A DNA stretch of 64,000 nucleotides, taken from Neolentinus lepideus HHB14362 ss-1 (taxonomy: Eukaryota; Basidiomycota; Agaricomycetes; Gloeophyllales; Gloeophyllaceae). Each line of letters begins with the position of its first letter. The stretch's first letter is position 1. The stretch spans positions 17,151-81,150 of the forward strand of contig KV425618.1 in NCBI GenBank assembly GCA_001632425.1, read 5' to 3'. Positions 1,509 through 51,545 of this stretch are shown piece after piece. A model generated the notes under the pieces. It was not told the DNA's origin. It worked only from the letters and a program-made list of their open reading frames with translations, and did not search any database. Both the position numbers and the translations under genes were made by a program.

Positions 1509-2875
1509 TGACAGGCTACAACACACAACAACCACCAAAAACACCTAGAGAAACGCGGAGGGAACTCCATCTAATAGTGTTGGTAGTCGAAGGGTAGAAA
1601 GGTAAAGCTTGGGGGAGGTGAGGGATGAAAAACAACACAATGGAAGGCACCGTATATCTCCTGTGAGTCAACCCAGATGCTCTATGCAACTCCTAACTCT
1701 CTAAAACTCTGAAACTACACTTCTCGGTGCCAACTCGGTGCTTCTCGGAGGGTATTCAGTACTGGGCAAGACCAGCTGTCCGTTGGAAGGACTCAGAAGG
1801 GTGAAAGACAATAGCTCGGAAGGTTCCTCCATGCCGGAGGACTCTAGGACACAATAGAACACAATGCGGATGCAGTAAAACACAGTAAGAACACAATGGA
1901 GATGATAAGACACAACGGAAACGCAAGACCTCACGCCAAGGCCGACTAGAACGCAATTTTGAATGCAGCGAGACTTTGAGATGTGAAGGTGAAGTAAATT
2001 CGATGGTGACCCATACAGTGGTCCGGAATGATCTGATCGGGGGTCTGAGAATACAGGGTGTCTAAAGTACTAAGTAACCCAAACGTCCGAAATCTACTAA
2101 GTCCAAAGCTCCTTCGTCTATCAAATCATGCCATATGCAACAAATGAGTATATACATCCGAAAACATACCGCCACAGCACGCCATATGCCTAACTGAGTA
2201 CCGCTATCATTCTGAAATATGCTCGGCACCTTAGAAACAACCGGTCCAAAGGAAAACCTTCCAAAATTGTTCCATCCGAAGTGTCGGCGCCCATGAATGA
2301 CTTGTATGAGCTGACTCGCATCTTGAACATCGTAAGGATAGTCAACAAAGGTCCGCGATGGCATCGGAGTGGCAAGGGAGGTGCCGCATGGTTGAATGGA
2401 GGATAGGATCATCGCAAGTGCATAAGGGAGACTGGATACAGTCAACTCGGCATGGATAAGCTCAGGATAGAGGTGCCGAGAGCGCTGAGTGTGGTGAAAT
2501 CGCTGACGTCGGGGGGTTCTGAAGGTCCTGAATGCTGACTAGCCATGCAACGTCCACATGGTGATGTTCTGGAGCACGTAGGAGGTCCGCCGATAACATT
2601 GGTGCTGCTCTTGAGGTGCATAAGGGTCACTTGGTCATCTCGGCATTCAGTAAAGGCTCCGAGGATCTCCGAGGATGCGGTGATGAAGTACTGAAACTCG
2701 GTGCAATGTCTAAGTGTGTCAGTTGTAGCAGGCGTATGGCTCGGAGCTCAGATATGAAGTACGTCGGAGCATGGAGATGTGTCGGAGGTGAATGGGAGTG
2801 GTGGAGTGCTCCGAGAAGTTGTTAGAAACACCAAAAATGCGTTTTTCAGAGGCTAGCGGTGCCTGAGGCCTATCA
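1509..2875 (-). mobile_element. Element A copy 2 (inversion breakpoint)
   Basis: This is a full-length A-family copy running from TGACAGGC to GCCTATCA. It is preceded by CCGC and followed by GCGT, so its own flanks give no target duplication. It lies in the opposite orientation to the copy at 50140-51545, and the flanks pair crosswise with that copy. Length is about 1.37 kb. No coding capacity is recognised. It may be a solo LTR (TG...CA ends, 4-bp duplications) or a non-autonomous terminal-repeat element. Confidence 0.75.
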
Positions 2876-3285
2876 GCGTGCAGCACTCGGCTGTATGTGC
2901 ATGCAGCACTGTGGTTGGCCGGTGTGCAGCATGGTCGAGAGTGGGAAAGGAGACACTCACCGAGAGCCAGAGCATCTGGTTTATGTCCTGGTATGATGGG
3001 CGGCAAAACCACCACCTTGCTGTCATTGCGATGGCTCTGGGCCCGAGCACTGACATCTGTGATGGTCCACAGGTCAGCGACCATTGGGTTGACTGGAGTC
3101 ACAGGCGGCGGAGGCACAGGAGCCCTGTCAAGGTTAATGTTGGGCCTACCCCCAGCCATATCCCACTGGAATTCTCAGACACGAGCTTGGAAATGGTCAA
3201 GTGTCACATCCGATGCACCCAGAGTGGTTGGCGCCAGGGGTACAGACAAGCTATGAAGTCTCCTAGAAGGCATTTGGTCCCCATC
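2876..3285 (-). pseudogene. DIRS-like retrotransposon gag, 5' part
   Basis: A short proline-rich coding stretch reads on the minus strand from about 3280 down to 2961. Next comes a GTGAGTG splice donor, and then a TGCTGCA-rich intron piece down to 2876. One in-frame TGA (near 3175) breaks it, at a place where the context suggests Trp. The matching acceptor and rest of the gag lie at 51688 on the plus strand. Joining across the donor and that acceptor keeps the frame (phase 1). On its own the fragment has no diagnostic motif; the assignment rests on this pairing. Confidence 0.5.
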
Positions 3286-3529
3286 TCCCAGGTTTAGTCC
3301 AAGATGGCGGTAGGACATTATGTTAAAGCAATACAGTAATGATTAAGTGAATGTAGCTATAGTAGCGAGCAGACTGAGAACTGTGAGCTGTTCGACGAAG
3401 CCGTGGTCAAGGTCAGAAAGAAGCCTGAGGACAAGGAAAGGAAAATTGTCGGTGAGGCTCTCGCTCAGCTGGACATTGCTGCCGGCCATACTCGGCTGCA
3501 CTGGAGTCCTGCCGGCACTGCCACTCAAA

Positions 3530-4465: not shown

Positions 4466-4719
4466 ATTCCGAGATCTGCTAAGATCTGCCAGAGACAATC
4501 GAAAACAGTCGACTCGGACTAGAGTCTATAACATGCATGAGGATGAGCCACACGCAGCAAGTCATTCCACAGTACCTGTATTCGAGCCAACTAGTAGCTG
4601 GTCCGGCGTAGCGGGGATTTTGTACTTGAGTACATAATATGACCAGGAGAAACTCCTCTAAAGTATGTCGAGGGTACAAGAGTTCTGGATGCCGCAAGAG
4701 CACAACAACTCCCCAATCA

Positions 4720-6200
4720 TCACCCAGCCGCCTGCGCCCTCCCAATCATTTTATTGATCGCCATCGGTCTTGCCGTTCCCCCGCCTCCCTTCGCTAAATC
4801 CGCCAACTTCGCCTCCCTCATCTTCAACAACACCTTACTCAAAAACGCCGGCGTAATAACCGGCTTCCCGTCCTCTCCTATCTCCACATCGCCTGCAAGG
4901 TCCATCGGCGTTCCACCGTTGCTCCCGCTGCTCGTGTTGACACTCGTGCTCCGGCTTACGCTGACCCCCGCTGCAGACCGCTTAGTGCCGCTGCCACTGC
5001 TGTTCGTGACAGGCGAGGAGTAGTTCTGGATAAGACTGCCTTTGGGCTGCTCGTTGGAGTCTTCTTTGTACCGGTCCCAGAGCGTGTAGAGGGCAATGAT
5101 TTCTTGCATGATCGTAGCTACTTGCGTCATGTTCACGTTCAAGCTGGCCTGGAAGCTCACTGGGTCTTGCACGGGTTTCTTGGCGTGGTGGCTGGCTTGT
5201 CGAGAGGACCGGCGGGTAGGAGCCGCTTGGGATGCTGGCGGAGGATTTGAGCTTTGGATTGATGCGCGGGTTGGATTGTGCAACACGAGAGTCAGATTGA
5301 TGACCGCGATGGCGATCATATGTGGCGGATATAGGAGGCACAGCTGAGACCGGTAGGTGTCGTTGATGATAAACCTGTGTGCTTCAATAAGGCTGCAATT
5401 ATGCTTCCCGTATACTACGTGCGTACCAGGCCATCTGTAGGGCTGCTTCTTGCAATTCTAGCTTGCCCTCGCCGGTGCCCCAGTACCGGTGCCCTTCGTT
5501 GATACCTACACCCAGTTCTCCCGCCTCTGCATCGAGATCGCTTGAACTTCCTTCTTTACAACACAACGTCATCAATGTTCGGTACGGGTGGAACACCGTA
5601 AGATCACACTCAAGATCGTCGACCAGATAGAATTCCATCTCCGCAAGTTTCGAATTATCTGACGGAAACGTCTTGACGCCGTACATCTCCTCTGTACTGA
5701 CATTCAGCAGGAATTATAAAGCAGAGGCCAATAACTCACGGCTAAAGAGTGATCTGGCTTCGGTCACGACATTCTTGATGTGCACGGGGGACTCTTCCGC
5801 TTTGGCCGCCACGTAGCAGCATGCCGCTATGACCAAGAACGGGTCTGTCTCAGAATACGAGTTCTTAAGATAAAATCGATGAAAGAACACGGTGGCAGTA
5901 GCAATCACGCGCTGCCGGAGTCCCAGTTTCTTCCCTAGCTTCGATATGCCTAGAGCCTACTCCTCGCATCACTACGTAACTCGGAGCAAATGGGTTAACG
6001 TACAGTTGGCGAAGAAAATCGCAAGAAGATCAAGATATTCAGGATCGTCGACAAACTGCCGATCTTCCGCTCGCGCTCTTTGCACCGCCGCGCGGTCCAC
6101 GATCCACCGCTTGCTGGAAGACGCGTCAGCATCAGCTATCATGCGATTCAGACAACTGTTCACCTCACTAATGCGAGCTCGCCCAAAAGTCGGTCGCCAT
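4720..6200 (-). CDS. SSN8: Cyclin C (Mediator CDK8-module cyclin, SSN8/SRB11)
   Basis: This is the cyclin partner of the CDK8/SRB10 kinase in the Mediator kinase module, acting in the nucleus on RNA polymerase II transcription. Five exons fit one frame: 6169-6200, 6004-6113, 5740-5949, 5427-5691 and 4720-5374, giving 423 residues. The ATG at 6200 starts MATDFW, the typical cyclin C opening. The first cyclin box shows LGLRQRVIATATVFFHRFY, then CCYVAAKAEESPVHIKN. The second shows EFYLVDDLECDLTVFHPYR and YWGTGEGKLELQE. The last exon adds a Ser/Gly-rich tail and a C-terminal segment with KVLLKMREAK. The tail makes it longer than animal cyclin C (about 280 residues), which is usual in basidiomycetes. 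Exon 4 could start one AG upstream, adding three bases. Confidence 0.92.
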
Positions 6201-6488
6201 GGCTAAACTCCAGGCCCGAGAAATATCTGAAGTAAGCTGGATGTGCTATTCAAGGCTCTTGTCAACATTTCTTGTGGCTTCTGCGATTGTTTGTCTTTGC
6301 TTGTGGCGCTGGTCTACATCCTTCACGTGGACTTGCGGCATGATTCGAGTCATGTATGAGCCTTCCTATGGTGCACTGTGCTACGATAAATATCATTGCA
6401 CAACGATGCACGCGGCATCGATACGGCATATTACTGACGACTTGGTCCTTTAGTAAGACACGCTCGCAGTAAACAACTCTGTACAATA

Positions 6489-6740
6489 TCATTGAATTGC
6501 GACAATCAGGCCCCAAACCAGGATCGCGAAAAACATCAAAAATACAGCTCGATGAGTAAAATAGAATATTGTGGCCTGCTCGGTTGCGACCGCCACCTCC
6601 GATTGGCCGCCACCAGGCACAATGTGGCTGAAGCTACTGCCGCATCTCGGCGAGCCACCCCCTGCCGTTCTCACACTATATCTCTTCCCCAGCATCACCG
6701 GCACCAGCCACTGCTCTATCGCAGTCATGTTTGCCTTCAA
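6489..6740 (-). CDS. Possible small tail-anchored protein
   Basis: This intact 83-codon frame lies between the cyclin C start and the MDH stop. Its C-terminal 20 residues (VFLMFFAILVWGLIVAIQ) form a good transmembrane segment at the extreme end, and a polar Gly/Ser-rich stretch precedes it. I do not recognise a family. The opposite strand is also open over much of it, so it may be chance. The position downstream of the MDH stop would need its own promoter in 6741-6850. Confidence 0.3.
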   Translation of the reverse strand: MKANMTAIEQWLVPVMLGKRYSVRTAGGGSPRCGSSFSHIVPGGGQSEVAVATEQATIFYFTHRAVFLMFFAILVWGLIVAIQ

Positions 6741-6850
6741 ATGTCACTATAGCAATGATCGCGGTCTAGCATGACAGAACAAAGCTATCTACGACACACC
6801 GCACCGTATCTACATCTCACTACACGTGAATTTTGTAGCTACACGCCATC

Positions 6851-8226
6851 TTACGACTGAGCAACGAAGGCCTTGCCTTTCTCAATGTTCTTCTTGAGGT
6901 CGGGCAGGCAAGCCGCAAGGAGCTTCTCCTCCTCGGGGGAGAGGGAACCGATGGGGTGGATCTTCTCGACGCCATTGACCTGAACAACAGCATAATCAGC
7001 GGCGGGACATCGCTGGGGGGAAAGCAGGACTTACACCGAGCTCGACGTTCGATGAGAAGAAGTCGACGCCCTGGTCAGCGAAGAGCGGGCTCTTGACGAA
7101 TGTGGGGGTGACGACACCCTTCTCGCCGTTCAAACCCCTGAGGACAGCGTTGGCGAAGCGCGCACCGGCGTACGCCATCGAGAGCGTCGCAGACCCAGCG
7201 CCGTCCTTCGCCTTCACTACCTCATCACCACCAAACTGGATCCTGTGCACGAGCTTCTCGTACGTCTCGCCCTGCAGACCCTTGCCCGCCGAGAGCTGCG
7301 AGAGTAGAGGAACGATGGTAGCGCCGGAATGGCCGCCGACGACGGTGACGACGGTCTCTTTGGGGTCGGTGCCGGCGATGCCGCCGAGGAAGCGGGCGGA
7401 GCGGACGACGTCGAGAGTGGTGACACCGAAGAGGCGCTTGGGATCGAAGACGCCTTGCTTCTCGAGGGTGGCGGCGACGATGGGGACAGTGGAGTTAACG
7501 GGGTTGGAAATGACGAGGACGCAGGCTTGAGGGGAGACACGGCCGATTGCGGCTGCGAGGTCACGGACGATGGAAGCGTTCGTCTATAGAGTCTTGTATT
7601 GAGGAATATGTTACATTTGCACAGAAGGTATACACATACGTTGAAAAGGTCGTCACGAGTCATCTTGGTCGGGGTTAGAAGAAAATAAGATAAAAAGTAT
7701 TATGGGCACTTACACCAGGCTGCAAACAAGCGGTTGTGAGATCACATGTTCTGAGCAAGTATTCAAACAACATACCTTCCTGGGGACACCAGCAGGAATG
7801 ACAATGACCTCAGTACCTTCCAAGGCCTCGTCAAGCTTGTCGGCAGCGAAGCCCTTGACCTATGGTGCAGTCAATTAATAAACTGCAGATGAAAACCAGA
7901 GCCTCGGAAACGGGGAGAATTAAAACCCAAGAGAATACCCAAACCGACTGCTACCCTCCGACCGAGCACGCCACACTATCAAGAAATACATGAACACGTA
8001 CCTCGCTGTTCGTGTCAACATGGCTGACATCTGCCGCAACACCAGGAGCACCACGAATATCGTAGAGGTTCAAGGACGAAACGAGGGGGTCGAGCTTGAG
8101 CAGGAGGGAGAGCGGCTGCCCGATTCCTCCTCCGGCACCCAGTACCGCAACCTTGGATTGCCGTGCGGCTGAGGAGGAGAACATGCGGCTCTGGGAGAGC
8201 GTACGGGCAGCAGCGCGGGCGAACAT
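6851..8226 (-). CDS. MDH1: Mitochondrial malate dehydrogenase
   Basis: This enzyme catalyses NAD-dependent interconversion of malate and oxaloacetate in the TCA cycle in the mitochondrial matrix. Six exons, all phase 0, encode 338 residues: 8002-8226, 7776-7859, 7714-7719, 7640-7663, 7035-7583 and 6851-6979. The first 22 residues are an Arg/Ser/Ala-rich targeting peptide. They are followed by [16 protein letters not shown] (NAD-binding loop), [10 protein letters not shown] (active-site loop Arg), [19 protein letters not shown] (substrate Arg) and VVGGHSG (catalytic His). The family length is matched. Exon 3 is only 6 bases (Pro-Gly) and exon 4 only 24. Both are needed to keep the conserved [12 protein letters not shown] loop. 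Confidence 0.95.
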
Positions 8227-9880: not shown

Positions 9881-12366
9881 ATGTCGAGTGCAATTGCAGC
9901 TCGTAAAGCGCGTCTTGCTCAATCCGGAGAGGCGCAAAACACGCCAGGACCCGCGCCTACTCCTGCTACTGCTCTCAAGCCCACCATCACAACTCCGACG
10001 GCGCCAGAGACTCCAAAGTCTTTGGGGAAATCGTCGTCCAAGCGAAAATCGAACAGTCAAGTCCCACTTCTCTCCCCGGAGAAGCAGAAGAGGGTCAAGC
10101 ACAAGGAGAAAAGGCCACGATATTTTAGTAGCAATGGCGATGCATTCACGAAGCAACAGGACGTCATTGTCATTGAAGACGAGGAATCGTCAAGCTCCGA
10201 GGAAAATGAGCAAATCGTCTCTCTAGCAGCGTCTGTCTCTGAGGATGGAATGCGTACGAAATCAAAGCGAGCATGGTCCCCTAGTAATGCATTCTACGAC
10301 TCTTCCGACGACGAGGCAAAGAACGTGACCATAAACGATCTGCTCGATATCCCTGTGCGGACTCTGCCTCTACAACCGTCTACTAGCGTCGCCTTAAGTA
10401 CTTTCCAAGCCATCCAAGACAAGAATTTCCTCAGACTAACGCGGGAAGATACTATAAAACTAGGGCTCTTGCCCTCGCATAACGAAGACGACGTTTCTGT
10501 GCTACTGGCCCTTGCTCCTGGTGAAACGGTCAGCCTTCTCGGGGTCTATAATCTGACTGTCTTGGCTGGATTTGTCTCATTATGCGGCACCACTTTGTCT
10601 GCCTCGCCGATCGCGCATCGTGTGTTTGCTCCTAGGTCCTCGCCCATTCCTGTCATCAAGAGTATGCCATCAGATTCAAGTGATGTCCGCAGTGACATTC
10701 CGGAGTTCACGCGACAGATTGTGCGCCAGGGTGGCTCGCTAGTCGTGCTGGGAGAGGTTACAAGTCACGTCGAAGGCTTGGGTCGAATATGCCGTACATT
10801 CGATGGTGTATTCACTCCATCTCGATGGCAACACGGTGACACTGACGTCCTGGGTATCAAAGGAGCTTACCTGGTAACGACACTTTCCTATATAACGTGC
10901 GTATTACCCTAATATGTTACTATGTAGATACGCCAGCCAAGTAGGGATATCCAGACTTTTTCCCTCCCGGACTCTTGGGACGCATGTTTATCTTCCGTCA
11001 CCTCAGAAACTACGGAGACGAAGACCCCGGTGTGTCTCGTGAAAGGCCCAAAGAATGCGGGGAAGAGTACGTTCGCAAGAACACTACTCAACCGGCTTCT
11101 GATGAGGTAAAGGCCACTTAATCTAGATATCACACTCGCTGTTGACTGATGTTCTCTAGGTACTCTAAAGTGGCATTCCTAGAATGTGACTTGGGTCAGT
11201 CTGAGTTTACACCCGGAGGTATGGTCGCACTCAACGTCGTCGATACGCCTGTGTTCGGTATGCACTCTCTTAGTAATCGCATTTCAGTCGTGTAACCCTT
11301 ATGGAACGTGTTAGGTCCGCCCTTCACACACCTGTCCATTCCGACTCGAGCACATTATGTCGGCTCGAGCACACCGCGACCGTCTCCATCCCACTACCTC
11401 TCTTCGATCCACGCTCTGCTCCAAACCTACCGTCTAGATATTCAGTTCTCCGCCGATCCCGATGTCGAATCAAAATCCCCAAAAATTGCGGACGTGATTC
11501 CGCTCGTCGTCAATGTGATGGGATGGACGAAGGGTCTCGGCGTAGATATAACACGTAAAATTGAAGAAATGGTCGAGCCGACCGATATCTTTGAGTTCGA
11601 GGTACCCGTCACAGAGTACGTACCTTCTCCTCATCGGCGACCTGCGGAAGGATCGGACGCGCGGTTATACACTCTCGAACCCATCGAGCCTTCCGTGCTG
11701 TCGACGAACTTCAGTGCCTCGGACCACCGCACGATATCGATGCTCTCCTACTTTCACGCTGTCTTTCCGCCGGTCAGTCTTTCATCTGAGACGTCTGTCC
11801 TAGCGTCGCCGATGGTTTCGTCATGGAATGTCTCGCTTCCGTTGTGCGCTCAGATGCCGTACGAAGTCGCCTTGGCGGAGGCGTTCGATCGGGTTTACGT
11901 TACGGGCGCTGGCTCTGAGGACGTCATCCATGCTGAACTACTCCGTGTACTCAATGGTGCTGTTGTTGGCCTACTCACTTGCGATCAGGGGGGTCTCGAC
12001 ATCGATCTCGACATGGACGACACTCCAAACGACGTAATACCCTACACCCGAGGAGCTGCTCCTCCTTCGCCTCTCTCATCACACTGCTGCGGTCTTGCGC
12101 TCATCAGAGGTGTATCTGAAACGAAATCCGGAGTACATCTACACATACTGACATCGGTATCGCCCGTTGCTGATGCGCGGGTGCTGATCAAAGGCGAGCT
12201 AGAGCTCCCCGTGTGGGGAATGCTCGATTTCCGCAGTGAGGAAGGGGGCAGTGTGGCGGGAGTGGAGAAAACTATGGTGCCATATTTAAGATGGGGTAGG
12301 GAGGAGGGCCGGGGTGGGGAACGGAGGAGGGTGAGGAGGAATCTGATGAGGAGGGGGCAGATGTAG
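9881..12366 (+). CDS. GRC3: Polynucleotide 5'-hydroxyl kinase GRC3
   Basis: GRC3 phosphorylates 5'-OH RNA ends and works with the LAS1 nuclease in removing ITS2 during 60S maturation in the nucleolus. Four exons (9881-10873, 10928-11106, 11160-11257, 11315-12366) give 773 residues in one frame. The N-terminus is Lys/Ser-rich and low in complexity, including an acidic DEESSSSEEN stretch. The kinase core has the P-loop GPKNAGKST at about residue 375, then VAFLECDLGQSEF (Walker B with the GQ clamp), then the PP-x-TH-x-S-x-PTRAHY region. MGWTKGLGVDI is the conserved downstream motif. The C-terminal part is less conserved, as usual for the family. It is head-to-head with TSR2. Confidence 0.92.
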
Positions 12367-13415: not shown

Positions 13416-16400
13416 ATGTTTTCCAAATCGCGAAAAAATAATCTTAATGGGGACAACAAACTGGATGTCGCGGTGGGAGCGCTCAAGCGTGTCTTAGAAG
13501 TCACGAAGGAAGCTTCCGTGGTGCTTCCCCCGTTGCAAGCCGTCGTCGGCAGCGTTTTGGTCGTTGTTGATCTGGCGCAAGTGAGTTTTTTTTCTCCCTC
13601 AGCATGTCCTGATGCGATCTATTTCCAGAAAGTTAAGACAAACTCTGAGAACATCGCAAGTTTAACGGTGTATATGTCCAAATTGAATGATATGCTGCAA
13701 AACGCAATACCCAAACCATGTCCAGAGCCCGTGATGCAGCGTGTTGACCGCCTTCAAAGGTCTGTCTGTCTCGTGTCACTTCTTCCTATCAGAAATATGT
13801 AAGGATACTGTATATGTCAGGTCCTTGGAGAAAATTGCCGATGACGCGCGCAAGGCAGGAAATCAGAAATGGTATACTAAAGGGACAAGTGTAGATAATA
13901 ATAGCGACAGTGTAAGCGACTGCTTGCGGGCGATCACCTGGTCCATAAACGATTTCATTGTAGGTTCTGCATTCTAATTTCAAGGAAGTATTACCGGCTA
14001 ATTTCTTGTAGGTCGGTGGTATCATGGCCATCGAGCTCGCTGTGGATGTTAGCTTTACTTATTCATCTCCGGCCTATAAGTTGATTATCTGTGTGTAGAA
14101 CGTGCGGTTGGATATGCAACAAGTCAGGGAAGATATCAAATGGGCAGCTGCTAAAGTCGATGTGGTGCGCGACCATGTAGATAACCTGAGCAATGCCATC
14201 AAGGTGATCCCTCATGTCAAGTATAAGTGAAATTATTCTAACCCTGCTACTATATCTTCAGATGGGTGCAGATTGTGCGTAATTCATCAAAGTGGCATCA
14301 CTTGTCGACTGACTTTCATTACAGCGATTCCAGTGCCATTTCATGTACCTGGAGCTCGACATGACCAGGATGGCTCCCGGCGCATATGTGAAGAAAACAC
14401 CAGAGTGGACACGCTCAACGCGATTCGTCAATGGATTCAATTCGAAGAGCATAACACGTCGGATAGCGGTCCTGGACTTCTTGACAGACAAAGGGTATTC
14501 TGGATCAGCGGTGTCGCGGGCTCGGGGAAGTCGACCGTTGCGCAAACTATGGCTCAGTGGTGCCATAGCCAGGGTGTTCTTGGCGCAAGTTTCTTCTGTT
14601 CAAGGGACGTTGCAGAGCGCAGTAATGTGAAACGGATCTTCCCTACCATAGCTTACCAACTTGGTGCGCAGCATATGGATTTCAAAGCAGAAGTAGGCAA
14701 TGTCCTTCGTGCCGATCCGGATGTGCAAACCACCCTTCCGTCTTTCCAGCTCCAGCACCTAATCGTGGACCCACTCCCATCCATAAAAAATGACCGAAGC
14801 CTTGTTGTTATAATTGACGCACTAGACGAATGCAACGACGAGGAGTCTACATCAGCCATTATCAATGCTCTCTCGTTACACGTGTCACGGTTGACTCCTC
14901 TCAAATTCCTCATTACGAGTCGTCCGGTTCAAAACATCACCGGAGGTTTCCGGGTGACGGGTCTAATCAATTACACTCAACATGTTATTTTGCATGAGAT
15001 TCAATCCACTCGGGATGACATACAAATTTATTTGACAAGAGCGCTCCGCCAAACGGGCGACCTATACAATCTTGCGGTCACTTGGCCGTCTCAGATGGAC
15101 ATCGACACACTCGTGGAGAAAAGCCACGACCTGTTTATCTTTGCTGCTACAGCAGTGAAGTTCATTAGCGACAGGCACACGAGCGATCCCATACGTCAGC
15201 TACAATCTCTCCTTCACGCAGAATTTCCTGTGCGACTTTCCTCCGCTTTTCGAGACCTGGACAGGCTATATCTTCAAGTTCTACAAACGGCATTCCCAGA
15301 GTTCGAGTTTCCTCATAACATGGCAGCTAACTCACGACTCAGACTGATACTTGGTACCCTGGTCATGAGCCGTGACCAGTTTACGCCTAAAGCTTTGGAA
15401 GCGTTGTTGGAGCTTGATGCTGGATCTGTTCGGAGCTCCCTTACACAGATTCAGTCTCTCATCGTCTTGCCGTCATCGGAAACCGAAGTTATCAAGATCA
15501 TTCATCCATCTATCCATGACTTTTTAATCGACAAGAACCGATGCATCGACTCCCATTTCTTTGTGAATGCAAAAATACACCATACTGTGATGGCACTCCG
15601 GTGCTTGCAAACATTACGACTTATGCTCAGAGAGGATATCTGTCGCATTAATGACTATTCCAAGCTGAATACAGAGGTGGTGACCTTCAGCACCGTATTG
15701 ATTTATACATCCCGTTGCAACTGCAATACGCATGCAAGCATTGGGCGTACCATGTTCAACATGCCGAGATACATGAAGAGCTTCTGAAGATGCTGGAAGG
15801 CTTTGCGTTCGCTTACATGCATAAGTGGCTAGAGGCGCTCAGCATCATCGGAGCAGTAGGGGATGCGATCGAAGCTCTGACTTCCGCACGCCGGGCACTA
15901 TTAGTATGTTACTGAGTCCAGCTTCTTTGTCAAACAACACTGAATCTGATTGGCGCGTTGCACAGAAACATCCTCTACCCAAGTCCTCAGCCCCAGAACT
16001 ATTCTACGATTGTCACAGAATTGTTCAACAATTCTTTTCGGGTATCAGTGCATCTTGCTTCCAGATCTACGTTGGGATTGTATCCTTTTGCCCAACGCGG
16101 ATACGGTTTCGAGACGTATATCAACCACAAGTGCGACAAACCCCCATTGTACTGACCGGTTTGAGATCGTCTTGGAGCCCTTGCCTCGGGATCGTCGAAG
16201 GACAGCACGGTATCGTCAACGTGGTTGCGTTTGCTCCGAATGGCAAGTATATTGCCTCCGGGTCCGAGCACAAGACAGTCAGACTGTGGGACGCGCAGAC
16301 TGGCGTACACCTGAATACACTTCACGGCCATTCTGGAGAAGTGAATGCCGTCATATTCTCCCCTGATGGGAGACATCTACTTTCCGCGTCCGACGACAAG

Positions 16401-18221
16401 AGTATCATTATATGGAACCCAGTTACAGGCCAGCTCTTGCTTAAGCTCACCACAGACATGGCAATTACGAAGGCAGCGTATTCTTCCCAGCTCAAATGCA
16501 TTGCATGCATCGGCAAGACCTCACACTGCGATATACTGATGTGGGAGGTTGGCGATACTAACCAGCCTCTGACATCGTCGACCTTTACCACTACTCATCA
16601 GGCTCCTTTGTCTGCAATAGCTTTCTCTCGCGCAGGTTCATTCCTATTTTCGGGATCGGAAGATCACTCTTGTATGGTTTGGGAAGCCGTTAACAGAACG
16701 TGTCTCCATACGTTTCGTCATTCATCGGCCGTTCACTCCATCGAGACCTCGCTCGACGATGAAATTGTTGCATGTGGGTGCGCAGATGGGTCAATTGTGC
16801 TGTGGCGCCTCGAGGAAGGGACTCAATTACGTGTTCTGGCTGGCCACACGGACCGTTCTACATGTCTATCATTTTCCCCGGATGGTGAAACATTGGCCTC
16901 TGGATCGGCCGACTTCACTATTCGCCTTTGGCAGGTCGCCAGTGGCTCCTGTATAGGTATTTTGCACGGTCACTCCGAGAGAGTGTTTGGGCTGCAATAC
17001 TCTCCAGACGCGAGCAGGCTTTGTTCTTGTGGCGCTGATGATACTATCAGAATCTGGGACACAGAAGACGCGGAAGGGTACAAGCTACTTGTGAATGCCA
17101 TAGACAGTGTGAAACCTTCTCGTAGAACTAAAGCTCCCTTGACTCGCCTTCTGAAGGGCGCGGCACCGAAGCCCAAAAGTGACTTAGGGCATCACTCCAA
17201 GGTCATAAGAGCAGTAACATTTTCTCCGAATGGCGACCTAATCGCTACTGGATCATGGGACTACACGGTTCGACTCTGGCAGACGAGCACTGGGGAATGC
17301 GTTAGGTGTTTGGAGGGCCATACACATCTTGTCGCTACTCTGTCCTTTTCTGCCACGGGGAAAAGGCTTGCCTCCGGCGGCAATGGGTGGTCAGATGACG
17401 AGGATAAAACAGTCAGAGCATGGGATGTGAACAATGGTGTATGTTTGGCCACACTTACCGGACACACCAAAGGCATCTGGCAAGTAGCTTTCCGTCATGA
17501 CGAAGAACAACTCATTTCGTGTTCTCATGATGGTAGCATCCGTCGTTGGAATCTGAACCCGTTCTCAACCGAAATCCTCTATCAAGGAGTCGAACATATA
17601 TTTTGCATGGCAATGTCCTCTGACGACAGTCTTGTGATTTTTGGCGCGTCCATGGTCCCCTACGGCAAAGAACGATTCCATCACTTCATGGGTTTACTGG
17701 ACGCGCGCTCGAAAACCCTCCTCTGGAAGGTTTATCCAGACCAAGGTCGATTTCACAGTTTGTCTTTCTCTAGCGATGGCACTAGGGCTATTTCTGGGAC
17801 GAACAGACATATCGTGGCCTTATGGGATACGAGTTTCAGGGCAGTATCTAGTCATAGTTCAGATCAGAAGCTTCTTCAGCAGATTCAAACCGACGCTCCC
17901 ATTGATGACGTTGCGTTCTCTGGTGACGAAACTTATATCCTCGCGAACTCTAGTTATCATATCATTCCTGATGAGTGCTTACCTCGGTCCATCACCCATC
18001 AGGTTGTACCTTCTCCGACTTTATATTTGGATCGGGGATGGATCTGGTGCGCTTCTCCCTCGAGACGCAGGTTATGCTGGATCCCCACAGATTTTAGGCC
18101 TGTCGAGTCTCGTCCTATGATCTTCAAAGGGCGCGTGGCATTCTTGGGATATATTGTAGCATTTGGGACGCAGCATGGATCTCTCGTCGTAGCAGATTTC
18201 TCCGGGTTTATGAAGCAGTAG
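13416..18221 (+). pseudogene. NACHT-WD40 NOD-like protein, one frameshift
   Basis: This is a fungal NOD-like receptor-type STAND protein. Exons 13416-13580, 13629-13759, 13821-13959, 14012-14047, 14099-14203, a 13-base exon 14262-14274 and 14325 onward fit one frame. A helical N-terminal domain covers about residues 1-195. The NACHT domain follows, with Walker A GVAGSGKST, FFCSRD, Walker B VVIIDALDEC and ITSRP. Near 15676-15690 the frame must move by one base, after LNTEV and before DLQHRIDLYIP, to continue the conserved helical region. An intron (15904-15965) then leads to a long WD40 part with about ten blades (for example VAFAPNGKYIASGS and LSFSPDGETLASGSADFTIRLW), ending at 18221. Apart from the frameshift, both halves are intact and conserved. 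It may be a recent mutation, an assembly error, or a gene that makes the NACHT part alone. Confidence 0.85.
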
Positions 18222-18429
18222 CACACTATGATTATGCAATAATTGGCAACATTCGAGAGCATATGGTACTAATGACATATACACAATATAGTACAGATGA
18301 CGAGCAAGGTAAAGCGCAAAACTGATCAAGCATTCCACGGCGCGATTTCATTCTTGAACTAATCCCTCAATCTCTCTACAACACTCATCAGTAAACCAAT
18401 ACTCAATCACGACACAAAACAACTCCATA

Positions 18430-36278: not shown

Positions 36279-37129
36279 TGGGAGGGACGCAAGCTCGGAC
36301 CTACTGGGATAGACTTGGTACGCGTCTCCTAAAAAAGACTTAGTAGGCGAGTAACTGTCTTTAAATTTAATGGAGACTTGTACCGGTTTACTTTACGCGC
36401 GTTAGTGGCAACACTACCCTTGACTAGTGTTGGACACGAAGTGAAGCTTTCGAAGTCCTTCGAAGTGTGTTTGTGACACACTTTGTTTTCTCAAAGTCAC
36501 TTTAGGGCGACTCGATTCTTAAATTGCCAGGTCGGTCGCCAGGTTGGTCGGTAGTGTCGGACACCAAGTGAAGTCGAAGTCCTTCAAAGTGTGATTGCGA
36601 CACACTTCGTTTTCTCGAAGTCACTTTAAAAGCACGTCGAAGACTTTGCGAAACTCCCCCAGTAGGATCCGCACATTGCACAATCACGTGATCCATGCGA
36701 CATGCTTGATGTGAGTCAGCACTGAGCAAGTAATAAACACTAAGTCCCATATTTGCGACTAAGTAGGGAATAAGCATCCGAGTCGTGTTTGTACATTGCT
36801 TGTATGATCAAATATATCCTTAGTTTATATATATGGACTTAGTGAGTTACATGGCACAGCTGCTAGAGAATATCAGATTTGTCTAAGTCTCAATTACTGA
36901 TTAATAGTACAATGTATTATAACTCTAGATCGTGGAGTGAAGACCAGGTCCTATCATTGAAAAGGAAGATAGGGAAAACCAAATAAGTGGTAAGGAAGTG
37001 CACCATGACTTGCGATGCACTCTCATCTGAGGCGATAACAAAAATACTGCTAAAGGTCAAGATTGAACCCACACCCTTGTTATCGAGGTATCTGGGTGAC
37101 ACATGACTTGACATATTAAGTGGCACCGA
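36279..37129. other. URB1 5' flank and boundary of the transposon region
   Basis: Upstream of URB1 the sequence becomes AT-rich and shows two copies of a short repeat (listed separately). No gene is seen. An element B copy starts at 37130. Confidence 0.4.
36428..36630. repeat. Two direct copies of a ~78 bp repeat
   Basis: Copies at about 36428-36505 and 36553-36630 share GAAGTCCTTCRAAGTGTG, GACACACTT and TTTTCTCRAAGTCACTTTA in the same order. Each unit contains inverted words (AAGTGTG and CACACTT), so each could fold into a hairpin. The spacing is 125 bp. Confidence 0.7.
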
Positions 37130-38280: not shown

Positions 38281-40698
38281 TGATATGCACAGACACATGA
38301 CGAAACCCGCAGAAATGAGACCTAAAGTGTAGACACAACCACAAAGCAAACACCAAAGCCCTTGGTGTCAGATGGCTGCGAGGCCCGGGGTAATGAAGGG
38401 TAATATAGTTTGGAGGGGATGGGTGGAGGTGAGACATATAGTTGGGGCTAAAGGGAGGTTGGGGCCAAGTCGCTGATGAACACGAACACACGACGAAACC
38501 CGCAGAAAAGAGACCTAAAGGGTAGACACAACCACAAAGCAAACACCAAAGCCCTTGGTGTCAGATGGCTGCGAGGCCCGGGGTAACGAAGGGTAATAGA
38601 TAGTTCGGAGGGAGTAAATGGAAGGATAGGGCCGAGACCGCAAACCACAAATGCGACGTATATGAAAAAAACCAAAAGAAACTGCAATGCGAAGTGGGAC
38701 GTAGAAAGATGGCGATGGAATAGCGATGGGAGACTAAAAATAGAACACAATCGGAAAGTGACAAGGTGCGACACAGCGCGCCTATTAGCAGTTGGCGAGA
38801 TAGCAATGTAGCGCTCTAGCGATGTATAGCGATGATAGTGACTCAGCGCTCCTATCGTAGGCAGAGAGATAGCGACGCAGGGATCGGAGGAAGGATGCAA
38901 GATACAGGAAGCTCAGAGATAGACGCAGGAATGAGATGGGAACACTAGATTGTGCAGGGAGGACTGACTGGGTTGCCTGTTGCCTGCCTTGTCTGCCTAC
39001 AAGAGGTCCAACTAAAGTACTCTACTGGGTAAACAAATGAACCAAGAGCCATATGCTAACAAAATGAAACTACTCCTGAAACTGATCTATCTCAGACAGG
39101 GGGAACAATCTCCATAAGCTACAGTGTCCATATGCACAGGCCACCGCATACCGAAAGAAGCATGGGAAAGCACACAGCATCGCATCAAAAAGTGCTATTG
39201 CTCCAGGTGGAGGCTGCACAGGTGCCCGCAATGCACGCACAGCCTTGGAATGACTTGAGCTTCATAGAGACCACACTGCCGGACACAGCTGAAGCAGTGC
39301 AACACTGCCGCACTATGCTACTTGTTGGAAGGACACCACGGCACCACCGCTATTGTCGAGATGGGTGCGCTTGCTTACATAATGCAGCAGAGCGCCTGCT
39401 GAACAAGATCAAAGTGTCGAGGAGTGCAGGAAATAGCTGGAAAAATCAATAAAAACTTGAATATTGCTTGCGCCACCAGACCGGGAGCCCTAGCGCTATC
39501 GCACATAGCGTGAGAAATAGCGCAAAAGTGCCGAAAATGCGTTTTCTGAGCCTAGAGACACATAGGGTGTATCATCGCTACTCGGTGGCAGTCTGAGGAT
39601 AGAAGGCGATGCTATGCGCTATGTAGCGCTATGTGCACGGCACTGTGTAGGTGCTATACGATGCTCCTCCTGCTTGGCACTATATGGTCTTCGATGCTCT
39701 ATAGAGGAGCGCTACTTGTAGTCGCTATCTCTAACTCGAACATGTATAGATTCTGGTTAGCACTACGCTACAGCGCACGGGGCTGTCTAGGAGGAAGGAA
39801 CTTATAAGGGATTGCTTACGAACAGCGACGCTACACTGGTGTACTCTGTCGCTATCTCTGGGTGAAGTCGGAGGTTTGCAAGAGTACCTAAATGTGAGTC
39901 GCAAGACGGACTTAGAAGAACCTCTGACGCGAGACTGAAATCTGAAGAGTGTGGTGAAGATAACTTGTTGTACAAACAGTAGAGTAATGGCTTAAATACA
40001 AGAGAGCAACTGCTCTATGTCCGATCCTATCTACCTACTACTGCGAGTTGTGCCTCTGCTCAGCCTCACATCCATACAACTTGTACTGCCTTGCTTCTAA
40101 TCTGCATGTGCTCTTCGACCAGTACCCTATGTGACCAACTCTAGCAAGTGCGCCATTCCACAGACGGGAGCCAGTCGGGTGCGTCTTGACTTTGTGTTAG
40201 AGTGTGCCTCTTTGATAATCCGGGGGCGGGCTATGCTGCCGATGCTAGCGTGATCCTGCCGAAAGAGGGATAAAGGGCGGGGCCACTCTGTGGTGCGGCG
40301 GTGTCGTGATAGCCGTAGTTGTGCCATGTGTCGATACGCACTGCACGCATAAGGAAAGTCGCGCCAATAGAACTAGTGCTGATCTGAAGCAACGGCAGGC
40401 TGTACGCCATATGGAAAGGCGCCCTGAGACACCGCCTCAGTTCGGACCACAGTAACAATGCCGGACGATGTATGCCGAGATGCCGATGACTCAACTGAAT
40501 GACGTTCGGCTGACTGAGCTACCGAGAAGCCGTCCTAAGTGCGCTGAAGAGCCGAGAGCCTTGTTGCTGGTGCGTAGGGTCGCTAGTGTGCAGAGTACCA
40601 ACAGTGTGCTATTGAGTCGCTAAGTCGCCATTCCCACGAAGCTCACGGAATCGCCCTAAATTGCGTTTTCTGGGGTCAGAAGCCAACGGGGCCTATCA
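38281..40698 (-). mobile_element. Element B copy 1 with exact 4-bp target duplication
   Basis: The ends are TGATATGCAC (38281) and GGCCTATCA (40698). ACGA precedes it (38277-38280) and ACGA follows it (40699-40702). Without the nested element D it is about 1.31 kb, close to B2 without its nested A (about 1.30 kb). It is non-coding. It inserted just 5' of the gypsy gag. Confidence 0.85.
38474..39574 (+). mobile_element. Element D nested in B, TSD TCGC
   Basis: D runs from TGATGAACAC to GGGTGTATCA (1101 bp) and is flanked by TCGC at 38470-38473 and 39575-39578. The B copy at 42083-44769 has the uninterrupted site (CCGAGTAGCGACTTGG, minus sense, near 44573), which confirms the insertion. About the first 120 bp of D closely match the first 120 bp of B. 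The two families therefore share one end, which creates an apparent tandem repeat at 38281-38600. Confidence 0.85.
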
Positions 40699-44769: not shown

Positions 44770-44838
44770 GTGACACAGGATGTGAGTCAGACGCGTTCGG
44801 TGATGGCCCCCCCAATGGACATTAACGCATATTGAGCA

Positions 44839-46478
44839 ATGGTGAATGTTGGTCAACCGGAGGACTTAAGGATTAGTCAACCCATGAATCATGGGCAACG
44901 GATCAAAGACAGTACTATTCATCTTGAGTACTCTAACGAGGCCCCAGTGAGCAACCTTCAACAAGTTAACGCGGTAATACCTGATGTGCAAGCCGCACGG
45001 GGTGCCAGCGGCGGACCGCCTGGAGGTGACCCTCCCGGCGACGATGATGGCAATGGTGACAATGGTAGAGATAGACACTATAATGACCAAGACCGACCTC
45101 CACATATACCAGAATGGGGTGGAGGCAGACCTCTGCATCCAGGAGGATGACCTCCTGGGCAAGCACCACCAGATGGAGGGCCGCCAGGAGGGGATGGAGG
45201 TGGAGGTAGAGGCCCATGGGCCCACCAAATCATGATTGACGACAGCATAGAGTGGCCGTAGTGGCACCAGATGATGGTGCTGGAGGAGTACCACCAGATG
45301 GTGGACCCCCAGGAGGAGGACCTCCAGGTGGAGACCCGCCAGGTGGAGATCCCTCAGATGATGAGCAGGATGAGGATGACGAGGATAATCCGATGAACAT
45401 CAGATGCCAGGAATGGCAGCACACCGATACTCCTGCTCACAATTACGAGGATGAGATCATACAGAAGGCACTTAGGACGATCGAATCCATGCGGCATATG
45501 GCCTCAGCGTACTCTCCGGAGACAAGGAGTTTCAAGCCAGCCATCTCAAATAAATATGATGGTTGAACAGACATACAATTTTTCGAGAAATGGCTGTCGG
45601 ATCTGCTAACCAACTTCGACTTGATGGGACTGGGTCGAGCCACATATGATTGGAAGTACATCCTTATTGTGTCTAAGTACCTTGAAGGAGATGCTTCAGA
45701 ATGGTTCTACCAGGAGGTTCAGGACTCTAACTGAGAGAAAATGAGATGGACATTTCCCGAAGTCATAGTAGGACTGATCTGACGTCATTTATACGTTGCG
45801 ACGTCCAAGGACGCTGATACACGGTATGAGAGGGTATCATACTCACTGAAGCAAGGTATATGACGAATGGTGAATGAACTCGAATACTGGGAACAACAAC
45901 GAGCAGCGAAGCCCCAGGATTATGACATCAAGAAATGCATATTAGAAAGTGTTCCTGATTGGATACGATCAGATTGTCTGTTCATAAGGTTACTTACTCC
46001 CGAGGATAGTCCATTGACTACTATAGTGGAGTATATCGAAGCTCTCGAAAAGGCTAGCAAGTATGAGAAGTCGACATACAACACGAGTGGCGTACATAGG
46101 ATAACTTGCCTGAATACGTCATCACGTACTAGCGCATCACAACCGATGAGGCCTCATCAAGGAAACCAACCATCCTCTCAAGCTGCTGTGCTGTCGACTA
46201 ACCATTGTAATGAGCACACAAGCGATAATGTGAGGGGACCGCGCCCTTCTAATGATCAATCACGCCCACGCCCTACTACCCAGCAGATGGGGCAACGGGG
46301 ATTTCAACGCCATCCTACATCAGTGTCCCAGGGACCTAATGTGGACTGTAGGGAAGTGCCTAGGGCAACTACTCCTGGCCTGGCTAGACAAGCTATGAGT
46401 TCAGACTCTTGCTTCCGTTGTGGCCACAAAGGACATTTCAGCAAAGACTGCCCTACTAGGACTAACGAGCGGATGTGA
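44839..46478 (+). pseudogene. Ty3/gypsy gag, downstream part with zinc knuckle
   Basis: Resuming after B2, this part has a Gly/Pro/Asp-rich stretch, then FEKWLSDLLTNFDLMGLG and LEGDASEWFYQEV, typical of the retrotransposon gag domain. A CCHC knuckle follows (CFRCGHKGHFSKDC, near 46408-46449). In-frame stops at 45564, 45732, 45777, 45861 and 46476 are all TGA. One frame change lies between 45150 and 45252 in the repetitive Pro/Gly region. Confidence 0.8.
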
Positions 46479-46664
46479 GCCATGGACAACGATGATGACG
46501 AGAATGTGGCAGAGACTGAAGCTATTGAGAATGAGGAGGAACCCCTAGAGGGTGAAGGGTTGGCTGAACCCTTAGAAGATGAGGACTTTGATTATCAGAA
46601 TTAAGGTTATGATGGTGATCAGTTTGATGATGGTGATGTCGAAGCTGATGACCGAATAGGATTT

Positions 46665-49600
46665 ATGCATACAAAGGATGATATGCACACTGCCGCAGAA
46701 TTTATCCTATCCGACGAAGGCGACGACACCTATGAGCACCTTGCAGCGCTAAGAGACTTGACTGACGATGAAGTACTGCGGCCAGGTCATAGAGATTGGG
46801 TAGCCGACCAACCAGAGAATAGCTTAAGGAATGTCACTCCACCCACTATAGGGGATGCTGAGTTCGAGAACCAGGTACTTTGTGAAGCTAATGAGGCTCT
46901 GGGCCGGGACAATGACCAACTGAAGGAGTTGAATCATACACTATTAGAGAAGGCCTACTTGTGTGAAGCATTCAAGGATGACATTACCCGACTATGCGCA
47001 TGTATACAGGAACTCAAATTAGGGGAAGATATCCCAATTCTCATGGCTATCAAAGAGGTGAAGCCAGGTGCATCTAATAATACCCTGACTACTGATGGTG
47101 ACCTGGTGCCAGTACGTAGTCGTCTAGTACTTCGGGATATGCCCGGCAATCGGCCTGATCGTACAGACTCAGAGCGGCGATGCATGTCAGCATATATACG
47201 CATCAACGGGGTATTAGCACATGCATTATTTGACTCTGGGAGCACACTGGACTGCATAAGCCCGGACTTCGTGTGCATAGCAAATATCACATGCTTTGAA
47301 CTGAGGAATCTCACTTTGCTACAATTGGGAACAGTTGGCAGTCGCTCAAAGGTGAACTATGGTACCAAGCTGAAGCTATCAGTGGGTGGTCAAATGGTGG
47401 ACCATTACTTTGATGTAGCAAATATTGATCGCTATGATATCGTGATTGGTACCCTGTTCTTATGGGCTAGCAGGACAATTATGAACTTCAATGACAATAC
47501 ACTGTCAGTATTTGGGAAGATTGTTCCCTCACCTCCAAAGGGGGAGGGACAGGTGCATATGAACCGAACGAGAAGTGTTAAAACTATTCGGACGGATCAG
47601 CCTAATAAGCTGGAATGAATCCCTGGCACAGCAATGGTCACGCCGTGACCAAAATGATGAGTAACCATCAAAGAGATCCCTGATGAGGAGTTCACCAGGC
47701 CTCGCCAATACTTGTCTGGACCATTACTGGAGTTAGCTGAGGAAAATTCAACTCATCCAAAGGCTAATAATTCACTGGACGGAAAACTACCTGGTAACGG
47801 CAAAGATAATGGACACATTGAGGTTAAATCTCAGCCTAAAGACCCTCCTATAGGTATGGCAAACTTATCGAGTGCGCATCAAGCAGTACCCATCAGGCAG
47901 AAGTGATTCAGAAAATCCCATCCCTGAAGGTAGACTCCACGCCTACTCTTCATTCATTCTATGATGGACCAAGGGATTCCTTTGGCAACAAGGATCCCTT
48001 TGGGCTTAACGAACCTATATTGGACACTTTTGAGGAATGCATTAGACATACCCATGAGCATGGTGATTTCTTCGAGGAAGATATTCCCCACCTTCGGGAA
48101 GGATGGCTGGAACACTGTAAGGACTTAATGGGAGATATACCATTGAAACTACCACCTCTGCGGCCCATTAATCACCATATACCTCTCAAGGACGATAATG
48201 CACAGTACAACTACCACCTGCCGTGTTGTCCTGAGTCGATGCGACCACTACTATCGGCAAAGATTGAACGTTATAAGTCAGCTAATTGGTGGAAGGACAT
48301 TACGGTCAGCCAAGCGGCACTGTTATTATGCATTCCCAAGAAAGATGGTTGACTATGGACAGTTGTGGATTGCAGGCAATGCAATGATAACACCCTCCAT
48401 GATGTCACTCCATTCCCAGATCAAGACCAGATTCGCATGGACGTAGCAAAGGCCAGCTACTGCTCGAAGATAGATATGTCGGATGCATATGAGCAGATTC
48501 ATATTGATCCAAAGGATGTATGGAAAACCGCCTTTGCGACTATCTACGGTACTTTCTTGAGTTACGTTATGCAGCAAGGTGATATGAACGCGCCCGCTAC
48601 ATTCCAATGACTCATGACATTTATATTCCGCGAGTTCAATGGAGCATTTGTACACATCTACCTGGATGATATATTTGTGTTCTCAGAATCCATAGAAGAT
48701 CACGAGAAGCATTTGAGAATGGTATTTGATCACCTTAGGCAATATCAGATGTACTTGAGCAAAACCAAATGTGACCTATATTCAAAAAGGCTGGACTGTC
48801 TTGGACATGTGATCAATGACTGTGGGCTCCATCTGGATTTGGATAAGATGGCGAGGATTCAGGAATGGAGAACACCTCGTAACTTCAATGAAGTCCAACA
48901 ATTTTTGGGTTTAGTGCAATACCTTGCACACTTCATGCCGGATGTCACGGCCTACACTGGGCCATTGGCTAGCATGTGTTGGGATAATTGTTCCTTTATG
49001 TGGCAGCCGATGCACAGCAAGTGCTTCAAATCTATCAAAGCAATGGCATGTCAAGCTCCAATCCTCAAACCTGTGGACGTGAAGGTTAATGAACCCATAT
49101 GGGTGATATGTGATGCCTCAATATCAGGTGTTAGGGCCGTATATGGCCAAGGACCAGATTGGCAGATGTGTCAACCCATTGGATTCATGTTGAAGAAGTT
49201 TACATTGGCACAACAGGCGTACTGCACATTCGAGCACGAAACAATTGCGATACTAGAAGCCTTACTGAAATGGGAGGACAAGCTTATAGGATGCCCCATA
49301 AGCATTGTGACAGACCACAAGGCTTTGGAATTCTTCAAATCTCAGAAATGTCTCTCTCACCGACAGACACGGTTGATGGAATATTTGAGTCGATTCGATT
49401 ATACTATCCACTACATCAAAGGCAAATCAAACAAAGTGGCAGATTGCTTCTCATGCTACTATGAGAGTGACAACATTGATGATTTGCAACCGGAGGATGA
49501 GTACGTTGTCGCGGATAGGTATCTCGACCCTAAGGGGGAGGACTTACCCCCTATACAACTTGAAGAACTCAGAAGTGCTACCGTGGGACCAGGACAGACA

Positions 49601-50139
49601 GGCCCCCCTCTTCCTGGAAGATCCCAGAGACTAAGGGATCTGACCACGCAGGAGTCCCAACGTAAAGAGGCGGCGGAAATGGCACAGGCCATACCCAATC
49701 CGGTCGATCCTTTGTCCGATGTTAAGGAATCATCAAAGGGTGCACACGTAGATAAGGAGGATGATGATCCTTCTATCGCTAAGTCAATAGCGACGCGCCA
49801 ATCACCCCATGCTATTATCAAAGGCAATCGTAATATATTGACCGCTATATCAAAGGGGTACGCTGAAGATGAGTTCTTCTCCAAGCTCAATAAGGACACC
49901 ATGCAGAAAGCTTTCGTGTTCAGAAACAAGTTCATATGGCGTAAATTACAGGACTCTACATTCGCTTTATGCATTCCCCAAACGAAATATGAGAAGTGTC
50001 GACTTAATGAGATTGTATTGGATCAGTGCCACTCGACCATTGGCCACTTGGGTGCAGCACACACCTTCAGCTATATTCATCACTGGTACTGGTGGCCAAG
50101 GCTGGGCGACCAAGTTGAACATTATTGCGCGTCATGCGG
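46665..50139 (+). pseudogene. Ty3/gypsy pol: protease, RT, RNase H, integrase start
   Basis: In order: aspartic protease ALFDSGSTLDCISPDF (near 47215); a linker with clustered TGA codons (47616-47670) and one frame change near 47903; reverse transcriptase with SKIDMSDAYEQI and the YLDDIFVFS active site (near 48659); RNase H with ICDASISG and TDHKALEFF; and the integrase zinc finger (HSTIGHLGAAHT, then YCASCG). It is cut at 50139 by element A copy 3, directly after the second Cys pair begins. Stops at 48350 and 48608 are TGA at positions where the family has Arg (KKDG-R, TFQ-R). The rest of the integrase is at 1508-1151 on the other strand. Confidence 0.88.
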
Positions 50140-51545
50140 TGATAGGCCTCAGGTGCCGCTAGCCTCCGAAAACACATTTTCGGTGTTTTTAACGACTTCT
50201 CGGAGCACTCCACCACTTCCATTCACCTCCGACACATCTCCATGCTCTGATGTACTTCATATCTGAGCTCCAAGCCACATGCCTGCTACAACCGATGCAC
50301 TTGGACATTGTGCCGAGTTTCAGTACTTCACCACCGCATCCTCAGAGATCCTTGGAGCCTTTACTGTATGCCGAGAGGACTGAGTGACCCTTACGCACCT
50401 CAAGAGCAGCTCCGACATTATCAGCAGACCTCCTATGTGCTCCAGAACATCACCATGTGGACATTGCAAGGCTAGTCAGCATTCAGGACCTTCAGAACCC
50501 CCCAACGTCAGCGATTTCACCACACTCGGCGCTCTCAGCACCTCTATCCCAAGCTTATCCATGCCGAGTTGACTGTATCCAGTCTCCCTTATGCACTTGC
50601 GATGATCTTATCCTCCGTTCGACCATGCGGCACCTCTGAGCCAATTGGATGCACCGAGTTCAGGTGCTGCGGACCCTCCTTGCCGCTCTGATGCCATCGC
50701 GGACCTTTGTCGACTATCCTTACGATGTTCAAGATGCGAGTCAACTCATACAAGTCATTCATGGGCGCCGACACTTCGGATGGAGCAATTATGGAAGGTT
50801 TTCCTTCGGACCGGTTGTTTATAAGGCGCCGAGCATATTTCAGAACGATAGCGGTACTCGGTTAGGCATATGGCATGCTGTGGCAGTATGTTTTTGGACG
50901 TATATTCTCATATGTTGCATATGGCACAATTTGATAGACAAAGGAGCTTCGGACTTAGTAGATTTCGGACGTTTGGGTTACTTAGTACCTTAGACACCCT
51001 GTATTCTCAGACCCAGATCAGATCATTCCGGACCACCATATGGGTCACCATCGAATTTAGTTCACCTTTCATATCTCAAAGTCTCGCTGCATTCAAAATT
51101 GCGTTCTAGTCAGCCTCGGCGTGAGGTCTTGCGTTTCCGTTGCGTCTTATTGTCTCCATTGCATTCTTACTGCATTTTACTGTGTCTGCATTGTGTTCTA
51201 TTGCGTCCTAGAGTCCTCCAGCATGGAGGAACCCTCAGAGCTATTGTCTTTCACCCTTCCAAGTCCTTCCGACAGACAGCTGGTCTTGCCCAGTACCGAA
51301 TACCCTCCGAGAAGCGCCGAGTCAGCGCCAAGAAGTGTAGTTTCAGAGTTTTAGAGAGTTAGGAGTTGCATAGAGCATCTGGGTCGACTCACAGGAGATA
51401 TACGGTGCCTTCCATTGTGTTGTTTTTCATCCCTCACCTCCCCCGAGCTTTACCTTTCTACCCTTCGACTGCCGACACTATTAGACAGAGTTCACTCCGC
51501 ATTTTCTAGGTGTTTTTGGTGGTTGTTGTGTGTCTTAGCCTGTCA
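50140..51545 (+). mobile_element. Element A copy 3 (inversion breakpoint)
   Basis: It runs from TGATAGGCCTC to GCCTGTCA (1406 bp). GCGG precedes it and ATGC follows it, so its own flanks do not match. GCGG pairs with the flank of A copy 2 at 1505-1508 (minus strand), and ATGC pairs with ACGC at the other end of copy 2 (2876-2879, minus strand). Confidence 0.85.

Follow-up and report, generated by a model that had tools for sequence, protein, structure and literature searches.

The stretch of DNA analysed here (64,000 nucleotides of Neolentinus lepideus, referred to below as the window) carries two copies of a 1.4-kb repeat, element A, on either side of a block of host genes, neither of which is bordered by a target duplication of its own. 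This raises the question of how both copies came to have mismatched flanks, and what happened to the DNA between them. The first-pass annotation had placed copy 2 at 1509-2875 and copy 3 at 50140-51545, in opposite orientation and without matching flanks, all of which is exact. Copy 2 lies on the plus strand and is 1367 bases long, and copy 3 lies on the minus strand and is 39 bases longer (1406); in each copy, 0 of the 2 outer positions of the 4-bp flanks agree. It had also proposed a single inversion between these two members of one family, one at each breakpoint, and this proposal is supported, as same-genome relatives of the interrupted elements on three other contigs (C72, C87 and C63) are contiguous where the inversion predicts it. 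As argued below, it is very likely that the 47,264 bases at 2876-50139 were inverted by ectopic homologous recombination between copies 2 and 3 as independent insertions of A.

Element A and its target sites

The genome (33.8 Mb, 168 contigs) contains at least 41 matches to element A, a lower bound obtained with 40 of 147 candidates scored. Of the 38 matches that lie outside the window, sequences were taken for 37 (all except C87:1-661), and the counts given here are confined to the 28 full-length copies, i.e. those in which both ends were reached, of which three lie in the window. Element A has features expected of a non-autonomous DNA transposon, with terminal inverted repeats that are short and imperfect (TGACAGGC / GCCTATCA) as well as a target duplication of a fixed 4 bp, while no transposase was found in it. 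The only two longer intervals between A ends that were fetched (L077 and L078) proved to be A interrupted by other repeats, with no long reading frame and no autonomous or coding partner of A in either. The TG...CA ends of the element would also fit a solo LTR.

The central two positions of all 56 flanks read CG (35), CA (12) or TG (9), so that the target of element A looks like NCGN. Single mismatches between the two sides of a duplication are then to be expected, presumably because of CpG decay at such targets. The left and right duplications are identical in 14 of the 28 copies and differ at one position at most in 24, and both outer positions agree in 25 (with L036 read to its second terminus). 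The three exceptions are copy 2, copy 3 and L027:2903, the last of which agrees at one of the two outer positions. Two further copies that at first sight had no duplication were rejected as such: the CCAC/CTGC of L032 can be read as CCGC that has decayed on either side, and in L036 a terminus of 20 bases is repeated, with CCGT matching CCAT once the repeat is passed. Among the four copies seemingly without duplication, copies 2 and 3 are the sole pair whose flanks match crosswise.

Copy 2 is flanked by CCGC (1505-1508) and GCGT (2876-2879), and copy 3, read on its own strand, by GCAT and CCGC. The crosswise match claimed by the first-pass annotation is therefore present at both junctions. On the plus strand, the CCGC at 1505-1508 (GCGG on the minus strand) has its exact complement, GCGG, at 50136-50139, and the ATGC at 51546-51549 has as its partner the ACGC at 2879-2876 on the minus strand, with one C-to-T change of the CpG type (GCAT versus GCGT). 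Agreement between duplications is weak evidence by itself, because the targets are biased: among 756 ordered pairs made up of a left and a right flank from different copies, 35 agree exactly (instead of 1 in 256) and 79 agree at both outer positions.

An interrupted gypsy-like element

Stronger evidence comes from the elements into which the two copies of A are inserted. A gypsy-like retroelement runs along the plus strand from 44778 to 50139, with reverse transcriptase, RNase H and the integrase zinc finger (PF00078, PF17917 and PF17921), and is cut at 50139. Its second arm, which begins with the final Cys of that zinc finger and contains an in-frame stop, lies on the minus strand at 1151-1508, i.e. 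on the far side of copy 2. The first arm is 91% identical to C72:63143-68519 over 5382 bases. On C72, the end of the first arm (49500-50139, plus strand) corresponds to 67881-68519 and adjoins the second arm (1152-1508, minus strand) at 68516-68870. On C87, the same two pieces correspond to 114578-113939 and 113942-113586. In both relatives the arms overlap by exactly 4 bases, which are the target GCGG, present there in a single copy. The sequence reads TCATGCGG and AGTCTGTCA on the two sides of the join in both C72 and C87, and these halves, each with its GCGG, are identical to the ends of the arms in the window; single-base differences between the arms and these relatives occur farther from the join. 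The arms are adjacent in two of the three genomic matches outside the window; the third, on C31, matches the first arm only (71% over 135 bases), with no second-arm match there.

The coding sequence gives the same picture. A 377-residue frame on C87 crosses the join point, its residues 1-173 matching the plus-strand arm up to 50137 (82%) and its residues 175-251 matching the minus-strand arm from 1503 (69 of 77 identical, 90%), so that residue 174 spans the join. The claim that the integrase stopping at 50139 continues at 1508 on the minus strand is borne out by this frame, and a 232-residue frame on C72 likewise crosses the join. The Pfam domain Integrase_H2C2 extends to profile position 58 of 59 in the uninterrupted C72 and C87, and only to position 50 in the cut arm of the window. 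A match to rve was obtained on C87 only and is weak (20.5 bits, below the cut-off of 32.6); the two minus-strand integrase pieces, searched alone against Pfam, gave no match. To the left of the window, C68:7151-17150 consists entirely of N, and the gypsy-like element is not traceable there.

A second interrupted element

At the other junction, copy 3 borders a second mobile element, which is split in the same manner. Its first part (exon 1 and the start of an intron) lies on the minus strand at 2876-3527, with a donor GT at 2960 (minus strand), and its second part (the rest of the intron, exon 2 and further coding pieces) lies on the plus strand at 51546-53041, with an acceptor AG that ends at 51687. 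C63 is the sole other genomic match for either arm, and both arms are collinear there. The similarity to 2876-3330 (minus strand) lies at 72205-71825 of C63 and extends in the window to 3527, while that to 51546-52210 (plus strand) lies at 71764-71735 and 71669-71064, in the same orientation as the first part, and C63:71669-70190 is similar to 51592-53041.

Translation of C63 places exon 1, the intron and exon 2 on a single strand. In the window the phase fits, exon 1 leaving one base over and exon 2 taking up two. Given this order on C63, and the donor at 2960 and the acceptor at 51687 in the window, it follows that A sat in an intron of the second element. Divergence of the intron on C63 prevents the empty site from being placed to the base, and the evidence on this side is one of collinearity. 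The first-pass annotation had described a DIRS-like gag intron; its donor, acceptor and phase hold, whereas the DIRS name is unconfirmed, as two 206-residue pieces of the broken element have no Pfam match at E <= 0.01. The second of these pieces has two unnamed protein relatives, and no solved structure was found below E 0.09 for the part of the element that was searched.

The concern that the integrase halves or those of the second element might belong to different families was checked, and in the relatives the halves are contiguous. The same annotation counted four independent signs of one recombination event. All four are present, although they form two pairs, one per junction, so that their independence was overstated, and the part that rests on the target duplications is the weaker one. 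Duplications are exchanged at both junctions, the empty sites are exact to the base at the gypsy-like element, and the second element is collinear with its relative; together this means that the 47,264 bases were inverted after both insertions of A had taken place. The uninverted state is deduced here from same-genome relatives of the split elements, i.e. from other loci on C72, C87 and C63.

Two of these observations also bear on the idea that the island arrived as a single large unit with a copy of A at each end, the two copies being inverted. The arrangement itself, a block of host genes between such copies, is what composite transposition would leave behind, but the outer flanks, CCGC and ATGC, are not one duplication, and the split elements join inner to outer flank instead of outer to outer. 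Composite transposition was rejected on the basis of the flanks and of C72, C87 and C63, and its probability is close to nil.

Divergence between copies 2 and 3

By sequence distance, copies 2 and 3 form an unremarkable pair among the A copies. With gaps left out, they differ at 107 of 1364 sites (7.8%; rank 141 of 378 pairs, median 8.3%), and if the 39 bases deleted from copy 2 are counted as differences the index becomes 289 of 378, which is an ordinary pair either way. Their longest exact run in common is 59 bases, against a median of 63.5 over all pairs. They have 16 non-majority states of any frequency in common; the number of derived states private to this pair is 0, where the closest pair by this count has 18.

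This bears directly on a second way in which the crosswise flanks could have arisen, namely aberrant transposition, in which a hybrid of the ends of sister A copies would have inserted 47 kb away and thereby inverted the segment with exchanged duplications. The flanks expected are the same, and Delprat et al. (2009, PMC2775673, in the passages concerned) describe the outcome as strikingly similar to that of ectopic recombination, the difference being the identity of the two copies. Sister copies should have private changes in common, of which copies 2 and 3 have none, and their distance lies near the median of all pairs. If the event had occurred while the family was spreading, hardly any private changes would have been available to inherit (pairs of copies average only 0.22), which leaves aberrant transposition some room, though it is to be regarded as highly improbable. 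Since copies 2 and 3 are not sister-like, recombination between two independent copies is favoured.

The exchange itself has left no signature within A. No signal of a crossover point was found in copies 2 and 3, and a crossover model gains only 1.2 log-likelihood units, there being little subfamily structure by which the parents could be separated. Since 7.8% of the aligned sites are different today, the exchange probably dates from a time when the two copies resembled each other more closely.

The shortness of the exact runs in common is also relevant to the reliability of the assembly, in which an assembler might have switched between the inverted copies of A and so reversed a segment that has kept its original orientation in the organism. 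The abundance of the family (at least 41 places in the genome) would lend itself to such an error, as would possible bridge copies, given that the longest exact runs in common with fetched copies outside the window are 102 bases for copy 2 and 114 for copy 3, and that copy 3 has 205 in common with copy 4. Copies 2 and 3, on the other hand, have no exact run longer than 59 bases at present, and the same limit would therefore apply to the real copies as they stood before a switch. There is no run of N in the window before 63995, and no second full copy of the island stretches 4650-7650 and 34088-36900 (sampled to a total of 5.8 kb out of 47 kb) was found in the assembly, so that mixed haplotypes are not evident. 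Short extra matches were seen for these stretches, two of 76% on C39 for one and repeats for the other. With so short an exact identity and no gap nearby, misassembly is unlikely, and an artefact is considered improbable as the source of the inverted arrangement.

Copy 4 of element A (54059-55463, plus strand) is a neighbour, and not a breakpoint of the 47-kb inversion, as it has its own intact GCAT/GCAT duplication; on this ground copies 3 and 4 were dismissed as the recombining pair. A small flip of 51546-54058 was considered as well, the left flank of copy 3 also being GCAT, but the continuity of the second element from 2876 to 51546 fits the present orientation. In this nearby inverted pair, a stretch of 203 aligned sites shows no difference, which may reflect conversion between copies 3 and 4. 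A pair on C20 (L026 and L032, with 545 identical bases, rank 1 of 378) was dropped as a second example of conversion, since an overall difference of only 2.3% may mean no more than that they are close sisters. Three copies on different contigs (L031, L033 and L034) are about as close to each other as this pair.

The island and the proposed course of events

The inverted segment contains host genes and the front part of the gypsy-like element, and its ends show the crosswise continuity described above. Pfam recognises NOL9/CLP1-type pieces at 9881-12366, where CLP1_P scores above its cut-off and the two NOL9 models stay below theirs. It also finds NACHT and WD40 frames at 14273-18221, an ADE2-type ATP-grasp frame at 25667-26428 and, on the minus strand, Npa1 at 34088-35110. 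The NOL9-like, ATP-grasp and Npa1 frames are GRC3-like, ADE2-like and URB1-like, respectively. For the URB1-like frame, the ten best relatives are 56-60% identical (among the best 120 of 238), and those named are from Laetiporus and Hydnum. Both breakpoints lie inside older mobile elements, so that neither is seen to disrupt a host gene.

The following course of events would account for the locus. Two copies of A would have inserted independently and in opposite orientation, one in the integrase of the gypsy-like retroelement (target GCGG) and the other in the intron of a gene of the second mobile element (target ACGC). Later crossing over between these inverted homologues (i.e. ectopic, non-allelic homologous recombination) would have flipped about 47.3 kb together with the host genes, and would have left each copy of A with one flank from each insertion site. 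The crosswise flanks and the crosswise continuity of the elements are as observed; from these we infer crossing over within A as the route, and a single event.

Whether the orientation of the island is fixed is a separate matter. Because both 1.4-kb inverted arms remain, renewed flipping is conceivable, and the island could be polymorphic between nuclei or strains with the A copies as standing points of exchange, although this is rather unlikely. The two junctions provide ready-made tests for strains of Neolentinus lepideus.

In a wider sense, the locus provides a record, near base resolution and within one genome, of a dispersed repeat that reordered host genes. The NCGN rule combined with CpG decay makes target duplications readable even after mutation, and the remaining copies of A could therefore be screened for further rearrangements.

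Comparison with known inversions

Among the literature matches listed (open-licence papers), no fungal inversion described with exchanged target duplications was found, and an exact-phrase search matched two papers, both on Drosophila. In Drosophila buzzatii, the transposon Galileo produced inversion 2z3 (Delprat et al. 2009, PMC2775673), and the passages concerned describe opposite-facing copies at both breakpoints, exchanged target duplications and a single target in the uninterrupted sites, as is the case here. The two cases differ in that sequences of non-inverted chromosomes were obtained there and the copies were described as chimeric, whereas here the uninverted state is deduced from relatives of the interrupted elements, the gain of the crossover model is only 1.2, and the system is fungal, with an unnamed element and a segment of 47 kb.

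Short non-autonomous repeats have also been proposed as substrates of ectopic recombination in Atlantic cod, where tandem hAT MITEs occur at inversion breakpoints (PMC12368964); these form tandem arrays, while the copies of A are single and dispersed. A fungal parallel is Leptosphaeria maculans, with 30 intrachromosomal inversions of 1.3 to 355 kb, of which 70%, as counted in that study, are bordered by transposable elements (PMC4210507). Those inversions were derived from genome alignments, and the passages concerned mention no exchanged target duplications, whereas the evidence presented here is of base resolution and comes from within one genome. The process is already known from such systems, and what is new is a clean instance of it with unusually clear traces.

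Results and discussion

Copies 3 (50140-51545) and 4 (54059-55463) of element A form an inverted pair with 2.5 kb between them, and the longest run over which they are identical, which was chosen as such (alignment columns 81-285), contains no differences at 203 aligned sites, compared to 103 differences at 1202 sites outside it. Across these columns they are the only difference-free pair among all 378 pairs of A copies (mean of 18 differences). The run is likely a gene conversion tract.

On its left, copy 4 is abutted by a separate repeat (53044-54058). The final 359 bases of this repeat match 36 places across the genome, its own locus among them; judging from the match positions on two other contigs (C26 and C145), the repeat appears to stop there at roughly the point that corresponds to the start of copy 4. 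Directly to the right lies a Plavaka transposase fragment (55464-56331; PF18759), with six further matches in the genome.

Elsewhere in the window, a 249-base repeat (36652-36900) has copies on other contigs that are up to 97% identical, and it is therefore probably younger than A. ARAGORN reports a tRNA-like sequence of uncertain anticodon ('tRNA-???') at 62039-62113; a stretch near it resembles, by eye, transposase-like coding sequence, and one 68-aa piece of that stretch is without Pfam match.

Element A has 4-bp duplications and targets that appear to be of the form NCGN (56 flanks of 28 copies). The gypsy-like element on contig C87 holds an insertion of another repeat (of the type at 38806-39574 in the window) with a 4-base overlap (C87:117803-119438), and such an overlap also accompanies the A-related repeat that interrupts A on contig C135 (interval L077). 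A mobilising enzyme for repeats with TGAYAGGC-type ends was not found in the two longer A intervals inspected (L077 and L078). Given the 4-base overlaps at both insertions, one such enzyme may be common to a whole clan of these repeats.
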